From Paracoccus subflavus (GTDB lineage: Bacteria > Pseudomonadota > Alphaproteobacteria > Rhodobacterales > Rhodobacteraceae): a stretch of DNA of 64,000 nt. Shown here piece after piece: positions 23,201-29,629 of the stretch. Position 1 is the first letter of the stretch; each line of letters begins with the position of its first letter. The notes under the pieces are model-generated. The model was not told the origin of the DNA and did not search any database. It saw only the letters and a program-made list of their open reading frames with translations. Made by a program: the position numbers and the translations under genes. The stretch is taken from assembly GCF_004310345.1 (NCBI RefSeq), contig NZ_SISK01000007.1, positions 62,001 to 126,000 of the forward strand, in the 5' to 3' direction.

Positions 23201-23277
23201 GGCCCCGTGGCTCAACTGGATAGAGCAGCCCCCTCCTAAGGGGCAGGTTACAGGTTCAAGTCCTGTCGGGGTCACCA
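23201..23277 (+). tRNA. tRNA-Arg (anticodon CCT)
   Basis: The 77 bases fold as a cloverleaf: acceptor GGCCCCG pairs with CGGGGTC, D stem GCTC/GAGC, anticodon stem GCCCC/GGGGC with loop CTCCTAA (anticodon CCT, codon AGG), T arm ACAGG/CCTGT around TTCAAGT, and an encoded CCA end. tRNA-Arg(CCT) genes are common integration sites, but I found no repeat of its 3' end downstream. Confidence 0.95.
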
Positions 23278-23503
23278 TCCTTTGTCGAGATAGAGAGCAA
23301 AATTCCTGAAGCCCGTCCGGCCGTCAGGGATCGACTTTCCGCATTCTGCAGGAGAACCCGGCTTGCGACCCCCCCCTGCGCAAGACAGCCTCCGGCGCGC
23401 GAGAGATCTGGTCCTCTCGCACCTCAGCCCAGGACTTTTCAGGTTGGTCCTGAAATATGCCGTCCGATGACAGGGGGCCACAAGCTGGCGGCATGGTGTA
23501 AAT

Positions 23504-23518
23504 GTTCTTGTTTTGTTC
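23504..23518 (+). promoter_or_regulatory. Candidate LexA (SOS) box
   Basis: GTTC-TTGTTTT-GTTC is an exact GTTC-N7-GTTC direct repeat, the LexA recognition pattern known for alphaproteobacteria, with the T-rich spacer common in such boxes. It ends 48 bp before the start of the two-gene cassette and would overlap its promoter (possible -35 TTGTTT or TTGTTC, -10 near 23531-23538). A third half-site in inverted orientation (GAAC at 23526-23529) follows at the same 7-base spacing. By base composition about one such match per 64 kb is expected by chance, so position is the main support. Confidence 0.6.
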
Positions 23519-23566
23519 CGATAAGGAACGTGCAATACTGGACCTGAAGCAACCAGGAGCAGTGCA

Positions 23567-24580
23567 TTGCCAAAACGGGCGACCATCCAGTACCGCGAGT
23601 TCAAGGCCGATGGCGCGCTGCGAGGAATGGACCTCAAGGCGACGCTGGTCGATGTCTTGCGTCGGGGGGCCGACGGCCACAGGATCGGCGATAATGCCCG
23701 TCTGAGGGCGATCGACCTGGATGGGGACGGCAGCCATGTCGTTCTGAACAAGGTCTCGTCGCCATCCACATGGAATGGGCCCGTCTTCTGCGGACAGATC
23801 ATCCATATCAGGGCCGGGGCGGATATTCAGGCGGTTCTGCAATCGCTGGACGACGATACGGACGAATTTCTGGTCCAGAACATCGACGTCGGGCGGGGCG
23901 CCCGGATCGTGAAGGGGGTGCTGTATTTCGCCGTCACCCAGAACCATGTGGGGCTGATCGAAAGCGCGGCGGTCAGGGCTTTGACGCTTGAACGCTATAT
24001 CGCTGCGCTGTTGCGGCAGGCCGGCGCGCTTGGCCTTGCGGAAGGGATCATCCTCTTGGCACATTTTTCGGCGGCCGGGGAAAAGGGCCTGACCGAATTC
24101 AGCGATCTTACCCTGTCCACGCGCCCCAGTTGCCGCAAAGGCCGCGATGCGGCGACGGGCGACCTGTTCAGGCGGCAGGCGGGCGCGGCCCGCGACGAGG
24201 GGGCCACGATCCTTCACGTGCTGCGCATGATGGGCTGGCCGGACGATGCCCTGGCGCGGCTCGAGGCCGAGGTGCCCGAAGGCGGGCGGCTTGAAGGACT
24301 GATCAGGGTCTTCATCAAGGATCGCCGCCGCAAGATCCGCATCTCGAGGGCGGCGGTCGAAGAAGCTCTGAGGCATGTCGATCCCGCTGATCTTGGCCTG
24401 CAGGGCGACGGCAGCGAACGGGGGGGCATGGTCAGGCTTTCGGTCGTCAAGGAGATTGCGGCCGAGGGCTCCCTTCTTGATCCAACCGATGCTATGCTTA
24501 GGATTGTCGAGGCCCTGAAGGAATGGGCCGCTGCCGGGAAGATCGATTGTCGCTTCGAGGGTCAGGATATGCCGCGCTGA
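23567..24580 (+). CDS. Unrecognised 337-residue soluble protein, first gene of a possibly SOS-controlled cassette
   Basis: I cannot name this protein. It starts at TTG, chosen because AGGAG lies 7 bases upstream and no ATG in frame is close. No signal peptide or transmembrane helix is seen. The N-terminal half looks beta-rich (KRATIQYREFKA, HVVLNKVSSP, CGQIIHIRAG). A distinctive block at residues 113-150 reads KGVLYFAVTQNHVGLIES and then LTLERYIAALL. The C-terminal half is charged and helical (KDRRRKIRISRAAVEEAL). It overlaps the downstream membrane-protein gene and lies between two tRNA genes. A soluble-plus-membrane pair behind an SOS-type box recalls defence or toxin cassettes; that is inference. 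Confidence 0.75.
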   Translation: MPKRATIQYREFKADGALRGMDLKATLVDVLRRGADGHRIGDNARLRAIDLDGDGSHVVLNKVSSPSTWNGPVFCGQIIHIRAGADIQAVLQSLDDDTDEFLVQNIDVGRGARIVKGVLYFAVTQNHVGLIESAAVRALTLERYIAALLRQAGALGLAEGIILLAHFSAAGEKGLTEFSDLTLSTRPSCRKGRDAATGDLFRRQAGAARDEGATILHVLRMMGWPDDALARLEAEVPEGGRLEGLIRVFIKDRRRKIRISRAAVEEALRHVDPADLGLQGDGSERGGMVRLSVVKEIAAEGSLLDPTDAMLRIVEALKEWAAAGKIDCRFEGQDMPR

Positions 24581-25131
24581 TCGCAGCCGCCGCAGCCGGT
24601 GCGGTTCTGCCGCCGGCCCTGCTGATCGGCGACCCTTCGCGGATGCTCGTGACCTTTCTGGGGTTGGTCTCGGCCAGCATCCTTCCGGCGGTTTCGCTGG
24701 TGATCGGCAGCCTGTCATCCTCGGGGCGCTCGGTCATGAGGATCGACGCCCTGGCGCAGGAACTGATGGACGCCATCCGCACCCTGTTTGCCATATTGGG
24801 CCTGGTTGCGATTGTCGTGGCGTTGCTGATGCTGATTGCGATCCTGCCGAAGGTCGGCTGGCAACTGCCTTATTCCGCCGTCGAAATTCCCGATGCCGCG
24901 CGGCGGGCTCTGCAGTCGCTGGCGCTGCTGTTCGCCGTGGCGGCCACCTGCAAGGCCATGGCCATTCCCCGAATCCTGGTCCGCGTTCTGATGATCCGGA
25001 AAGACATTGCCATCCACGAGGCGCGCAAGGCGTTGGCCGAGACATCCCCGTCCGAGGCCGACATCCGGCAGATGTTCGCGACCAGGGAAGGGTTCGGAAA
25101 AACCGTTCCTCTGGACAGCGTCCGGCGGTGA
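24523..25131 (+). CDS. Four-helix membrane protein, second gene of the cassette
   Basis: A 202-residue protein I do not recognise. Four transmembrane helices are visible at about residues 15-35, 41-63, 85-108 and 129-150, with a cytoplasmic-looking C-terminal tail of about 50 residues rich in Lys, Glu and Arg (IRKDIAIHEARKALAE). The ATG at 24523 lies 58 bp inside the upstream gene with AAGGA touching it. A TTG at 24547 with GGGAAG five bases upstream is an equally good start. The deep overlap implies coupled translation and a stoichiometric or regulatory relation to the soluble partner. Confidence 0.75.
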   Translation: MGRCREDRLSLRGSGYAALIAAAAAGAVLPPALLIGDPSRMLVTFLGLVSASILPAVSLVIGSLSSSGRSVMRIDALAQELMDAIRTLFAILGLVAIVVALLMLIAILPKVGWQLPYSAVEIPDAARRALQSLALLFAVAATCKAMAIPRILVRVLMIRKDIAIHEARKALAETSPSEADIRQMFATREGFGKTVPLDSVRR

Positions 25132-25205
25132 TCGGGATCGGGATTGGGCAAGGTCTGACCATGCGGACCATGACGCAATCCGACAGGGACAGTCTGGATG
25201 GAAAA

Positions 25206-25289
25206 TGGTGGGCGACCCTGGAATCGAACCAGGCATGGGTCTCCCCGGCGGAGTTACAGTCCGCTGCCGCACCTTGCAGCACGTCGCCC
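25206..25289 (-). tRNA. tRNA-Tyr (anticodon GTA)
   Basis: On the minus strand the 84 bases fold as a class II tRNA: acceptor GGGCGAC with GTCGCCC, anticodon stem GCGGA/TCCGC with GTA in loop CTGTAAC, a long variable arm typical of tRNA-Tyr, T arm CCTGG/CCAGG, discriminator A and an encoded CCA. It is convergent with the cassette upstream and divergent from rlmB. Confidence 0.95.
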
Positions 25290-27415: not shown

Positions 27416-29629
27416 TTACTGGGCGTCTGCCGTTTGCAGCAGTTCGGTGATCCGGCGCACCGCAGCGCGGCGGTTTTCGCGCACGTCGCCTTCTTGTTGC
27501 ACCAGCGGGAAGCTTTCGCCGTAACCCTGCACCACCATGTTTTCGGGCGGGACCTGGAAATATTCGGTCAGGGCAAGCGCCACCGATTCGGCGCGACGGT
27601 CAGACAGCGCCAGATTGGCTGCATCCGAGCCGACAGTGTCGGTATGCCCCTCGATTAGGAACATCTCGCGCGGATTGCGGCTGACGGCATCGCGGATAGC
27701 GTTGCCCAGGGCCGACAACTGCTGTGCCTGGTCCGGCGTGATGGCGGCCGATCCCGTGTCGAAGGTGATCGAATCGATGGTGATCGGCGGCACAAGCGCA
27801 CGGACCTCGGCAATATTGCGGACCTGACCCAAGGTAAAGGTGCGGTTCACATCCACTTCACTGCGCAGGGCTTCCTGCAAGGCGGCCTCGTCCTGATAGA
27901 TCCCTGCGCCATAGGCAGGCGCCGGAGCGGGCAGCGTCGAGACATCCACCGGCTCGACCTGGGCCGTATCGTCGATCAGGCGCGTCTGGGTACCGTCGGC
28001 AGACACCAGCGTGCGCCGCAGCACACGCAGATCGGCGTCGCGGATGGTGACAACCCGGCTGCCGTCGGCACGGGTCACGATGGTGCGCGACGATCCGTCG
28101 TCAAAGTTCTCGGTCGTCACGGTCGATCCCGGCTGACGCAACAGGGCCACGTCATCCTTGATCAACTGCTGGCTGCCATCGGGAAGCGTCACAACCACCC
28201 GATCCGGCGCGCTGAGCGCGACCTGACGGTTGTTGTTGAGATAGGTTCCCACGGCAACCGCACCCAGGCCCAACAGCAGTGCGCGGGCCAGATCGTTGTT
28301 GTCGTCATCCTCCTCGGCACGCGGCGCGGCCTCGTCCTCGGCCTGCTGCTGCTGAGGCTCGAGGGCGTCCCGCAGGCTGGTTTCAAAATCCTCCGAGGAC
28401 GACCGGCTGTTTTCTTCGGTGATCTGCTGCTCGACCACCTCGCCCTGGGTGTTCTCATCCAAGGCGGCGGCCGTGGGTGCCGCCGTTTCCTGTGCCGCCT
28501 GGCGGGATGCCTCGGTCGCGGTGGCATTGGTCTGGGCCTGCTGCGCATCGGCGGATTGCGGGGATGCAGGCGCTGTGGCCGTGCCCGGAGCTGCCGTTCC
28601 GGTCGCCGCCGGTTCCGTGGCCCCGGTCGTTGCCCCAGTCGTGGCAGGGGCTGCAGGCTGGCTGGCTACGGGCTGGCTGGCGGTGGGCTCGGCCTGCTGG
28701 TCGCGGGTCAGGGCGTCCCGCAGGGCGTCCTCGTCGCTTGTGGCCGTGTCATCCGCGGCTGTCCCGGACGCAGTAGCCTCAGGGGCGGCTTCGGCTTCCA
28801 GCGCGTCCTGCAGCGGATCGGCATCTGGCGCCCCCGACTCTGCAGAGCCCGAATCCGCTGATCCCGAATCCGCAGATCCTGCGGCGCTGTCGGCCTGAGG
28901 CTCGTCCGTCGTTTCCACCGAGGCTTCGGCCTCTGCTCCGACTTCGGTCGAGGCATCGGCCGACGTTGGAGCAGGCTCTGAAGGCGTCGCATCCTGGGCA
29001 GGAGCTTCGGCGGCAGGTGCCGGCTCAGCGGGCGCCGCCTGCGCCGCGGGCTCGGCGGCAGGCTCGCTTGCCTCAGGTGCGGGTTCGGCCGTAGGGGCAG
29101 TGTCGGTGGGGGCGGTGTCCGGCTGGGCAGGGGTGGTTTCAGGCGCTGCCGCTTCTTCCGGGGCCGCTGCAGGCTCCTCTGCAGGCATCGGTTCGGGGGC
29201 GGGCTCGGATGCCGGTTCTGTCGGCGCATCGGCGGCCGCAGCGTCCTCGGTCGGGGCAGCCTCCTCGGCTGCCGCCTCCGGTGCCGGTTCATCGGCGGCA
29301 GCCGGCTCTTCGGCCGCCGGGGCCTCGGCGGCAGGGGCATCGGCTGCAGGTTCCTCGGCCGGGGCGGGTTCTTCCGTGGCAGGGGTGTCGGCCACGGGCT
29401 CATCGACCGTCTGTTCGCTTGTGGCCGGCTGCGTGGCCGTATCGCCCGAAGGCGCTTCGGTCGGCGGCGGGATCTCGGCCTGAGCCAGGATCACGGTGCC
29501 GCCCTGATCGGCGGCACCTTGATCCGCAATGGCGGGATCCAGGGTCAATACCTGGGCCTGCACAAGCTGGGGGGCCAGCAAGGACAGGCAGGCGGCGATG
29601 GCGGTGGTATTGCGTATCATCCTGCGCAT
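27416..29629 (-). CDS. OmpA-family outer-membrane/peptidoglycan-binding protein with long Ala/Pro/Glu-rich region
   Basis: A 737-residue exported protein. A signal peptide ends near residue 26 (LVQAQ). Residues about 45-440 are low-complexity Ala/Pro/Glu/Thr sequence with repeated EPAAEAPA-like words and are probably disordered. A short hydrophobic stretch (ARALLLGLGAVAVGTYL) follows, then a beta-rich segment (PDGSQQLIKDD, TRADGSRVVTIRDAD). The OmpA C-terminal domain is at about residues 610-730 (DSITFDTGSAAITPDQAQQL, IEGHTDTVGSDAANLALSDRRAESV), with the residues that bind diaminopimelate. It likely links the outer membrane to the wall. Confidence 0.88.
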   Translation of the reverse strand: MRRMIRNTTAIAACLSLLAPQLVQAQVLTLDPAIADQGAADQGGTVILAQAEIPPPTEAPSGDTATQPATSEQTVDEPVADTPATEEPAPAEEPAADAPAAEAPAAEEPAAADEPAPEAAAEEAAPTEDAAAADAPTEPASEPAPEPMPAEEPAAAPEEAAAPETTPAQPDTAPTDTAPTAEPAPEASEPAAEPAAQAAPAEPAPAAEAPAQDATPSEPAPTSADASTEVGAEAEASVETTDEPQADSAAGSADSGSADSGSAESGAPDADPLQDALEAEAAPEATASGTAADDTATSDEDALRDALTRDQQAEPTASQPVASQPAAPATTGATTGATEPAATGTAAPGTATAPASPQSADAQQAQTNATATEASRQAAQETAAPTAAALDENTQGEVVEQQITEENSRSSSEDFETSLRDALEPQQQQAEDEAAPRAEEDDDNNDLARALLLGLGAVAVGTYLNNNRQVALSAPDRVVVTLPDGSQQLIKDDVALLRQPGSTVTTENFDDGSSRTIVTRADGSRVVTIRDADLRVLRRTLVSADGTQTRLIDDTAQVEPVDVSTLPAPAPAYGAGIYQDEAALQEALRSEVDVNRTFTLGQVRNIAEVRALVPPITIDSITFDTGSAAITPDQAQQLSALGNAIRDAVSRNPREMFLIEGHTDTVGSDAANLALSDRRAESVALALTEYFQVPPENMVVQGYGESFPLVQQEGDVRENRRAAVRRITELLQTADAQ

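Follow-up and report, generated by a model that had tools for sequence, protein, structure and literature searches.

A candidate Rex-like gene pair behind a LexA-type box in a variable slot between two tRNA genes of Paracoccus subflavus

The gene pair and its surroundings

The window analyzed here, a stretch of 64,000 nucleotides from the genome of Paracoccus subflavus, contains a tRNA-Arg gene and a tRNA-Tyr gene that delimit a slot occupied by two overlapping genes, denoted A and B below, with a LexA-type box in front of them. The features of the locus are as follows:

23201..23277, forward strand: tRNA-Arg (CCT), the left edge of the variable slot (ARAGORN)
23278..25205, no strand: the variable slot, 1,928 bp here and 86 bp in the empty genome G019
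23504..23518, forward strand: LexA-type box GTTCTTGTTTTGTTC, 48 bp before the start codon of gene A
23526..23529, forward strand: third half-site GAAC, present in the window and in L010 only (2 of 6 orthologs)
23530..23540, forward strand: likely -10 region GTGCAATACTG, with 7 of the 11 columns invariant in 6 orthologs
23555..23559, forward strand: Shine-Dalgarno sequence AGGAG, with all 12 columns of 23551-23562 invariant in 6 orthologs
23567..24580, forward strand: gene A, encoding a soluble protein of 337 aa, TTG start
24523..25131, forward strand: gene B, encoding a four-helix membrane protein of 202 aa, with an alternative in-frame TTG start at 24547
25206..25289, reverse strand: tRNA-Tyr (GTA), the right edge of the slot (ARAGORN)

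When the frames are read from the sequence, the start of gene B overlaps the 3' end of gene A on the same strand, and protein B contains four hydrophobic stretches on the Kyte-Doolittle scale. The preliminary description of this DNA, which reported overlapping genes for a soluble and a membrane protein with a TTG start and a good Shine-Dalgarno sequence, is thereby confirmed. A soluble protein encoded first and a four-helix membrane protein encoded second, on the same strand and in overlapping frames that are predicted to form a single operon, is the layout of RexA and RexB of phage lambda; judged by this correspondence, gene A, in the RexA position, is likely to encode a sensor or activator, and gene B, in the RexB position, is likely to encode the effector. 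The slot is flanked by a gene for a LacI-type regulator on the left and by an rlmB-like RNA methyltransferase gene on the right (both named by eye). Elsewhere in the window, positions 27416-29629 of the reverse strand encode an OmpA-type protein (737 residues; also named by eye) that includes a very long Ala-, Pro- and Glu-rich region.

A variable slot with an accessory cassette

The contents of the slot were read in 20 of the 125 genomes of the same genus, and the same tRNA-Arg gene forms its left edge in G019, G028, G032, G070 and G042. The slot is empty in G019, where the two tRNA genes are 86 bp apart, with the same LacI-type gene (95% identical), both tRNA genes and the rlmB-like gene all in place. 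The cassette is the only content of the slot in G070, and in G042 it is accompanied, before tRNA-Tyr, by a phage-like or satellite element (L245:4740-14766) with genes for an integrase, a primase-polymerase, a terminase, an HNH protein, a capsid protein and a portal-like protein. The slot of G028 holds a gene for a 990-residue type IIG restriction-methylation enzyme (L237:8120-11089; PADLOC PDLC03627, E 0; Pfam MmeI domains), and that of G032 a gene for a 291-residue protein with no Pfam match above the cut-off and no PADLOC match (L241:11146-12018). In G122 and G001, the cassette lies beside tRNA-Tyr, with no tRNA-Arg gene within about 10 kb, and in the remaining 12 of the 20 genomes tRNA-Arg is absent from the stretch that was read. 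The tRNA-Tyr gene was matched by BLASTN in all 30 same-genus loci that were fetched. A search further into the slot for an att-like repeat, in the form of an exact same-strand repetition of at least 9 bases from the 3' end of tRNA-Arg, found none.

Gene A itself is present in 6 of the 125 same-genus genomes and in 3 of the 295 genomes of a family-wide sample, the genome analyzed here included. The cassette is accessory and is not part of the core genome, as had been supposed at the outset, and the neighborhood comparison in relatives, which uncovered both empty and differently filled sites, agrees with the initial view of the tRNA gene as a hotspot.

A conserved LexA-type box and putative SOS control

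The GTTC-N7-GTTC box 48 bp upstream of gene A, already noted in the preliminary description, is found, as one or the other of two similar sequences, equally far from gene A in all six Paracoccus orthologs (the window, L009, L010, L011, L012 and L024). The motif is that of the Caulobacter LexA consensus, GTTCN7GTTC, as it is given in an excerpt of PMC12700426. Among the six orthologs, 13 of the 15 columns of the box are invariant compared with 4 of the 40 columns just upstream, so that the box is selectively conserved; between the box and the -10 region, 1 of the 11 columns is invariant. The box also stands above chance because the 64 kb window, with both strands counted, has only three GTTC-N7-GTTC sites and because its distance from gene A is kept in every one of the orthologs. 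The third GTTC/GAAC half-site, which was thought to continue the same spacing, does exist in the window, but its conservation is limited to 2 of the 6 orthologs (the window and L010) and it is probably incidental.

The genome contains one gene with a LexA domain and one RecA gene (both by Pfam), with GTTC-N7-GTTC just upstream of each. The tighter pattern GTTCNTGTTNNGTTC is found at four sites in the 3.18 Mb genome, compared with none when the pattern is read backwards as a control. One of these sites is that of the cassette; the second belongs to an ImuA-like gene (E 1.1e-14, below the curated cut-off) that adjoins a weakly DNA-polymerase-IV-like gene; the third precedes a metallopeptidase-like gene (also below the cut-off); and the fourth lies between a radical-SAM DNA modification or repair gene and a lolA-like gene. 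The boxes of the metallopeptidase-like and the radical-SAM/lolA-like genes are located near position 1501 of L258 and near position 1501 of L259, respectively. Within Paracoccus, then, the cassette has what characterizes the alphaproteobacterial LexA regulon, a GTTC-N7-GTTC motif that lies over the promoter and is kept in orthologs. This conservation, along with the like boxes at lexA, recA and the imuA-like gene, lends support to the LexA-type control postulated originally: LexA would be expected to bind the box, and DNA damage would raise the expression of the cassette.

The same evidence, the conserved box and the like boxes at lexA, recA and the imuA-like gene, would also fit a host SOS growth-arrest pair, in which B, a LexA-controlled membrane toxin, keeps damaged cells arrested, A either activates or restrains it, and phage are affected only incidentally. 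We consider this explanation rather unlikely, given that the cassette is rare and patchy both in the genus and in the family-wide sample, that the slot holds a restriction enzyme in a relative, and that relatives of gene A are found on viral contigs. For the Rex-like reading of the pair, there is an adverse observation as well: outside Paracoccus, a LexA-type box within 300 bp upstream was detected in 1 of the 19 genome loci (L014, in the reverse orientation, at -133).

The upstream stretches of the non-Paracoccus copies have a feature of their own. The 6-mer CTCGAC occurs in 10 of the 20 stretches, with a maximum of 7 for any 6-mer in 200 shuffles, and, followed by T or A, it lies 51-65 bases before the matched start in L014, L015, L017, L018, L019, L022, L035 and L036. 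It is perhaps a promoter element or the site of another regulator.

Gene A belongs to a prophage gene family

Gene A has no family in Pfam, NCBIfam or PADLOC, where a few weak matches lie far below the cut-off. To this extent, the original statement that no family is recognized holds; it does not hold for PHROGs, in which gene A matches phrog_3482 over residues 3-323 (E 3.8e-11), the family that the A protein of Escherichia phage Perceval matches at 2e-135. This PHROG is annotated as 'unknown function' and differs from the present case in being silent on LexA control and on the tRNA slot. The open-licence PMC paper texts that were searched yielded no mention of phrog_3482 and no related paper that combines Paracoccus, RexA and prophages.

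Database searches collected 116 relatives of A and 86 of B, those of the window included, and the named ones among them come from Alphaproteobacteria. About 8,000 candidates were scored in the search with gene A and about 8,000 in a further search for relatives, which contributed the best 120 of 151 matches. Searches with tblastn reached Acinetobacter phages and then Escherichia phage Perceval and Shigella phage SfIV. Of the A sequences gathered, 69 entered alignment A1, 67 entered A3 and 57 entered A7, from which L195 was left out on account of a stop codon; of the about 86 B sequences, 62 entered A2 and A4. The alphaproteobacterial and gammaproteobacterial A families are linked by hhalign over 309 columns with a probability of 98.2% (E 3e-14). 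Their B proteins have no detectable relation by profile (0.4%), a point against the Rex-like reading; judging from these profiles, A is shared and its membrane partners are diverse. A PDB sequence search with the A or B profiles returned nothing credible; 8twq is retrieved from this library when lambda RexA is the query.

In the alphaproteobacterial branch, 23 of the 24 genome loci have gene B behind gene A, the single miss resulting from a contig end, and the A frame is split in L021. Several of these copies lie, by eye, behind phage tail genes or beside methylase or type I restriction genes. The pair of L016 is near type I restriction genes and that of L023 near cytosine methylase genes (by eye), which suggests that these flanks are other defense neighborhoods.

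The gammaproteobacterial phages show several arrangements. The order in Perceval is CI, A, a transmembrane gene and kil; the order in the Acinetobacter phages is CI, a small gene, A and a gene for a 167-residue membrane protein; and the A homolog of SfIV adjoins holin and lysin genes. The membrane gene behind this homolog in SfIV (L121:3501-3827) encodes only 108 aa, and an IS1 gene starts at its end. The pair of Perceval was matched in 42 of 5,426 complete E. coli genomes, in 41 of them over at least 80% of its length, and the matches are hypothetical proteins in the 12 records listed.

A survey of the gammaproteobacterial family covered 156 loci (77 and 75 from viral contigs and 4 from phage records), which a rough criterion, shared 4-mers (0.6), divided into 33 clusters; counts by cluster are fairer than counts by locus because two contigs were counted twice (L106/L193 and L116/L130) and one Acinetobacter cluster comprises 75 loci. 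Seven loci with less than 560 bp downstream and 16 with less than 1,500 bp upstream were left out of the respective counts. In 148 of 149 loci, and in 32 of 33 clusters, the frame immediately behind A encodes three or more hydrophobic helices; the one exception is the locus L111, in which A itself is truncated. As a control, 461 further open frames from these loci, 150-220 aa in length, included 2 with as many helices; the comparison is rough, since most control frames are not real genes and the frame chosen behind A was the best of several. Upstream of A, 105 of 140 loci (17 of 31 clusters) encode a CI-type repressor in the same direction; the copy in the window lies between tRNA genes instead; the 14 of 31 clusters in which the five-sequence CI model detected no repressor count against the Rex-like reading. 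Altogether, the phage context of the relatives supports the notion of a phage-linked module of a soluble and a membrane protein. The picture in the preliminary description of a pair with no recognized family has to be corrected, for it is not an orphan pair: gene A is a member of a wide family that occupies the position of lambda rexAB in many prophages.

The adjacency to CI in 17 of 31 clusters, together with the bias that lambda RexA is reported to exert on the bistable switch (excerpts of PMC11077077), would be compatible with a captured lysogeny regulator, such that A tunes the CI/Cro switch in prophages and, in its chromosomal form, has resident prophages and not infecting phage as its target. 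This possibility appears quite improbable because the membrane partner, needless for a pure regulator, is kept in 148 of 149 loci and because some copies are located elsewhere, beside lysis genes in SfIV and, by eye, behind tail-like genes in others. There is even less to recommend a phage-derived lysis or holin remnant, with B as the holin and A as its control protein: one record calls an Acinetobacter B 'holin-x' and the SfIV copy adjoins holin and lysin genes, but the pair lies by a CI-type repressor in 17 of 31 clusters and no endolysin is annotated beside it in Perceval or in the two Acinetobacter stretches read, so that the chances of this explanation are slight.

Comparison with Rex and other known systems

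The likeness of the Rex-like candidate to its lambda counterpart extends to gene position, inasmuch as relatives of gene A often directly follow a CI repressor gene, as in lambda cI-rexA-rexB. The copy in the window differs from RexA/RexB in that it is chromosomal, is located between tRNA genes and has a LexA-type box instead of CI. By sequence, gene A matches none of the RexA families (PF15969, PDLC02339 and phrog_12654; hhalign 0.1-0.5%) and gene B neither of the RexB families (PF15968 and PDLC02340; hhalign 0.3%), and none of the 57 family members examined matches Pfam RexA at E up to 1. Comparison of gene A by hhalign with lambda RexA, actinophage Rex proteins and DUF4747 gave 0.1-0.6%, that is, no link; this silence is weak evidence because hhalign cannot link lambda RexA with the actinophage Rex proteins either (0.5%), and both are treated as Rex-like in the excerpts of PMC11077077. 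A search for RexA in 398 genomes of the phylum produced no match, but its controls were equally silent. Because the pair has the layout of Rex, and its relatives often have the position as well, but without detectable sequence similarity, it is classed as one that works like Rex and not as one that is Rex; what is put forward, by analogy, is a likely Rex-like mode of action and not membership of the Rex family. The RexAB of Staphylococcus is unrelated.

The RexABpp pair of P. putida (PP_5643/PP_5644) is, according to excerpts of PMC12894663, likewise composed of a cytoplasmic protein and a four-helix membrane effector encoded after a CI-like repressor, but PP_5643 is reported there to match RexA in HHpred, whereas family A does not in hhalign. 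When the seven published residues of RexBpp (PP_5644) were compared with B, the best agreement was 4 of 7, with 235 candidates tried at 65 offsets each; as these residues match no B in the set, the P. putida analogue is not demonstrable as a member of the family. A soluble protein with a membrane partner is also described, in the parts of the papers available, for the actinophage pairs CarolAnn gp44/gp43, Sbash gp30/gp31 and Butters gp30/gp31; the Rex-like soluble proteins of actinophages are given there as 337-403 aa in length, and include Toast gp42, the neighbor of which is gp41. In CarolAnn, genes 44 and 43 share an overlap like that of the cassette, but CarolAnn, Butters and Toast are all without detectable sequence relation to the cassette.

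Other families were considered and rejected. DUF4747 (PF15931), reported for RexA and for Sbash gp30, has no Pfam match in gene A, with the hhalign values quoted above (0.1-0.6%). For a CBASS-type 4TM effector, B of the window has no PADLOC match, and an Acinetobacter B reached only E 0.0014 over 36 residues. The KwaA/KwaB lead of the preliminary description, a Kiwa-type system of the membrane protein KwaA and KwaB to which a soluble protein of more than 300 residues with a four-helix partner would conform, is scarcely tenable, since there is no KwaB (PF16162) match in Pfam or PADLOC, profile comparison with ten KwaB proteins by hhalign gives 0.1%, and kwaA precedes kwaB, an order opposite to that of the cassette.

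Proposed mode of action

On balance, the evidence tilts slightly in favor of the cassette working like lambda RexA/RexB, that is, aborting phage infection through the opening of the membrane, from behind a LexA-type box. The analogy starts from an overlapping gene pair, a conserved box, an empty-site polymorphism and prophage kin of A that are often located beside CI and a membrane gene. Infection, or DNA that is damaged and replicating, would be sensed by protein A, which would bind DNA or a complex of DNA with protein and would activate the membrane protein B; B would then depolarize or permeabilize the membrane and stop growth, and the phage infection would fail. If the pair resembles that of P. 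putida, derepression of LexA would raise A and B together and could prime them or set them off. In lambda and in P. putida, an increase in RexA by itself is reported to be enough to activate RexB (excerpts of PMC12894663), so LexA derepression could itself be the trigger, both against incoming phage and in cells that are inducing their own prophages.

The analogues lend this scheme some of its steps. According to the same excerpts of PMC12894663, PP_5643 and PP_5644 are both needed for defense, RexBpp damages the membrane, and RexA of P. putida binds DNA and, when overexpressed, causes RexB to halt growth and injure the membrane in the absence of phage; for Sbash, two alterations of the central loop of gp31 are reported to abolish defense (excerpts of PMC6426596). 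Other reports run against the scheme: overproduction of RexA or of RexB abolishes exclusion in lambda, binding of RexApp to RexBpp was not shown in the two-hybrid tests described, membrane damage in P. putida is found in a small subpopulation, and the roles are reversed in Butters, with gp30 as the effector (all from excerpts of PMC12894663); furthermore, the DNA binding of RexA is described as not strictly required for exclusion (excerpts of PMC11077077).

Implications for prophage exclusion and SOS control

A more tentative reading, which we put forward as a possibility, is that a Rex-type pair was taken from prophages and its control inverted, to become a host trap behind LexA in a tRNA-tRNA defense slot, with phrog_3482 as a new Rex-like family. 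The inversion of control, which is deduced from the control elements seen in the sequence and from their presumed action, is to be taken with the same reserve. A prophage copy behind CI would be on in the quiet lysogen and would fall once SOS destroys CI. The Paracoccus copy behind LexA would be on when a prophage is induced or when an infecting phage damages DNA, and this LexA-run timing would be opposite to that of the prophage-owned copy.

Under the Rex-like reading, a large, unannotated prophage gene family would gain a testable function, and the tRNA-Arg/tRNA-Tyr slot would be a ready place to seek further defense genes in Paracoccus. The cassette and its prophage relatives would represent a natural case in which the same kind of exclusion pair is wired to opposite phases of the SOS response, through CI and through LexA, respectively, and in which it may be tested whether an SOS-timed collapse of the membrane protects a population from its own prophages and, with that, what Rex is for.
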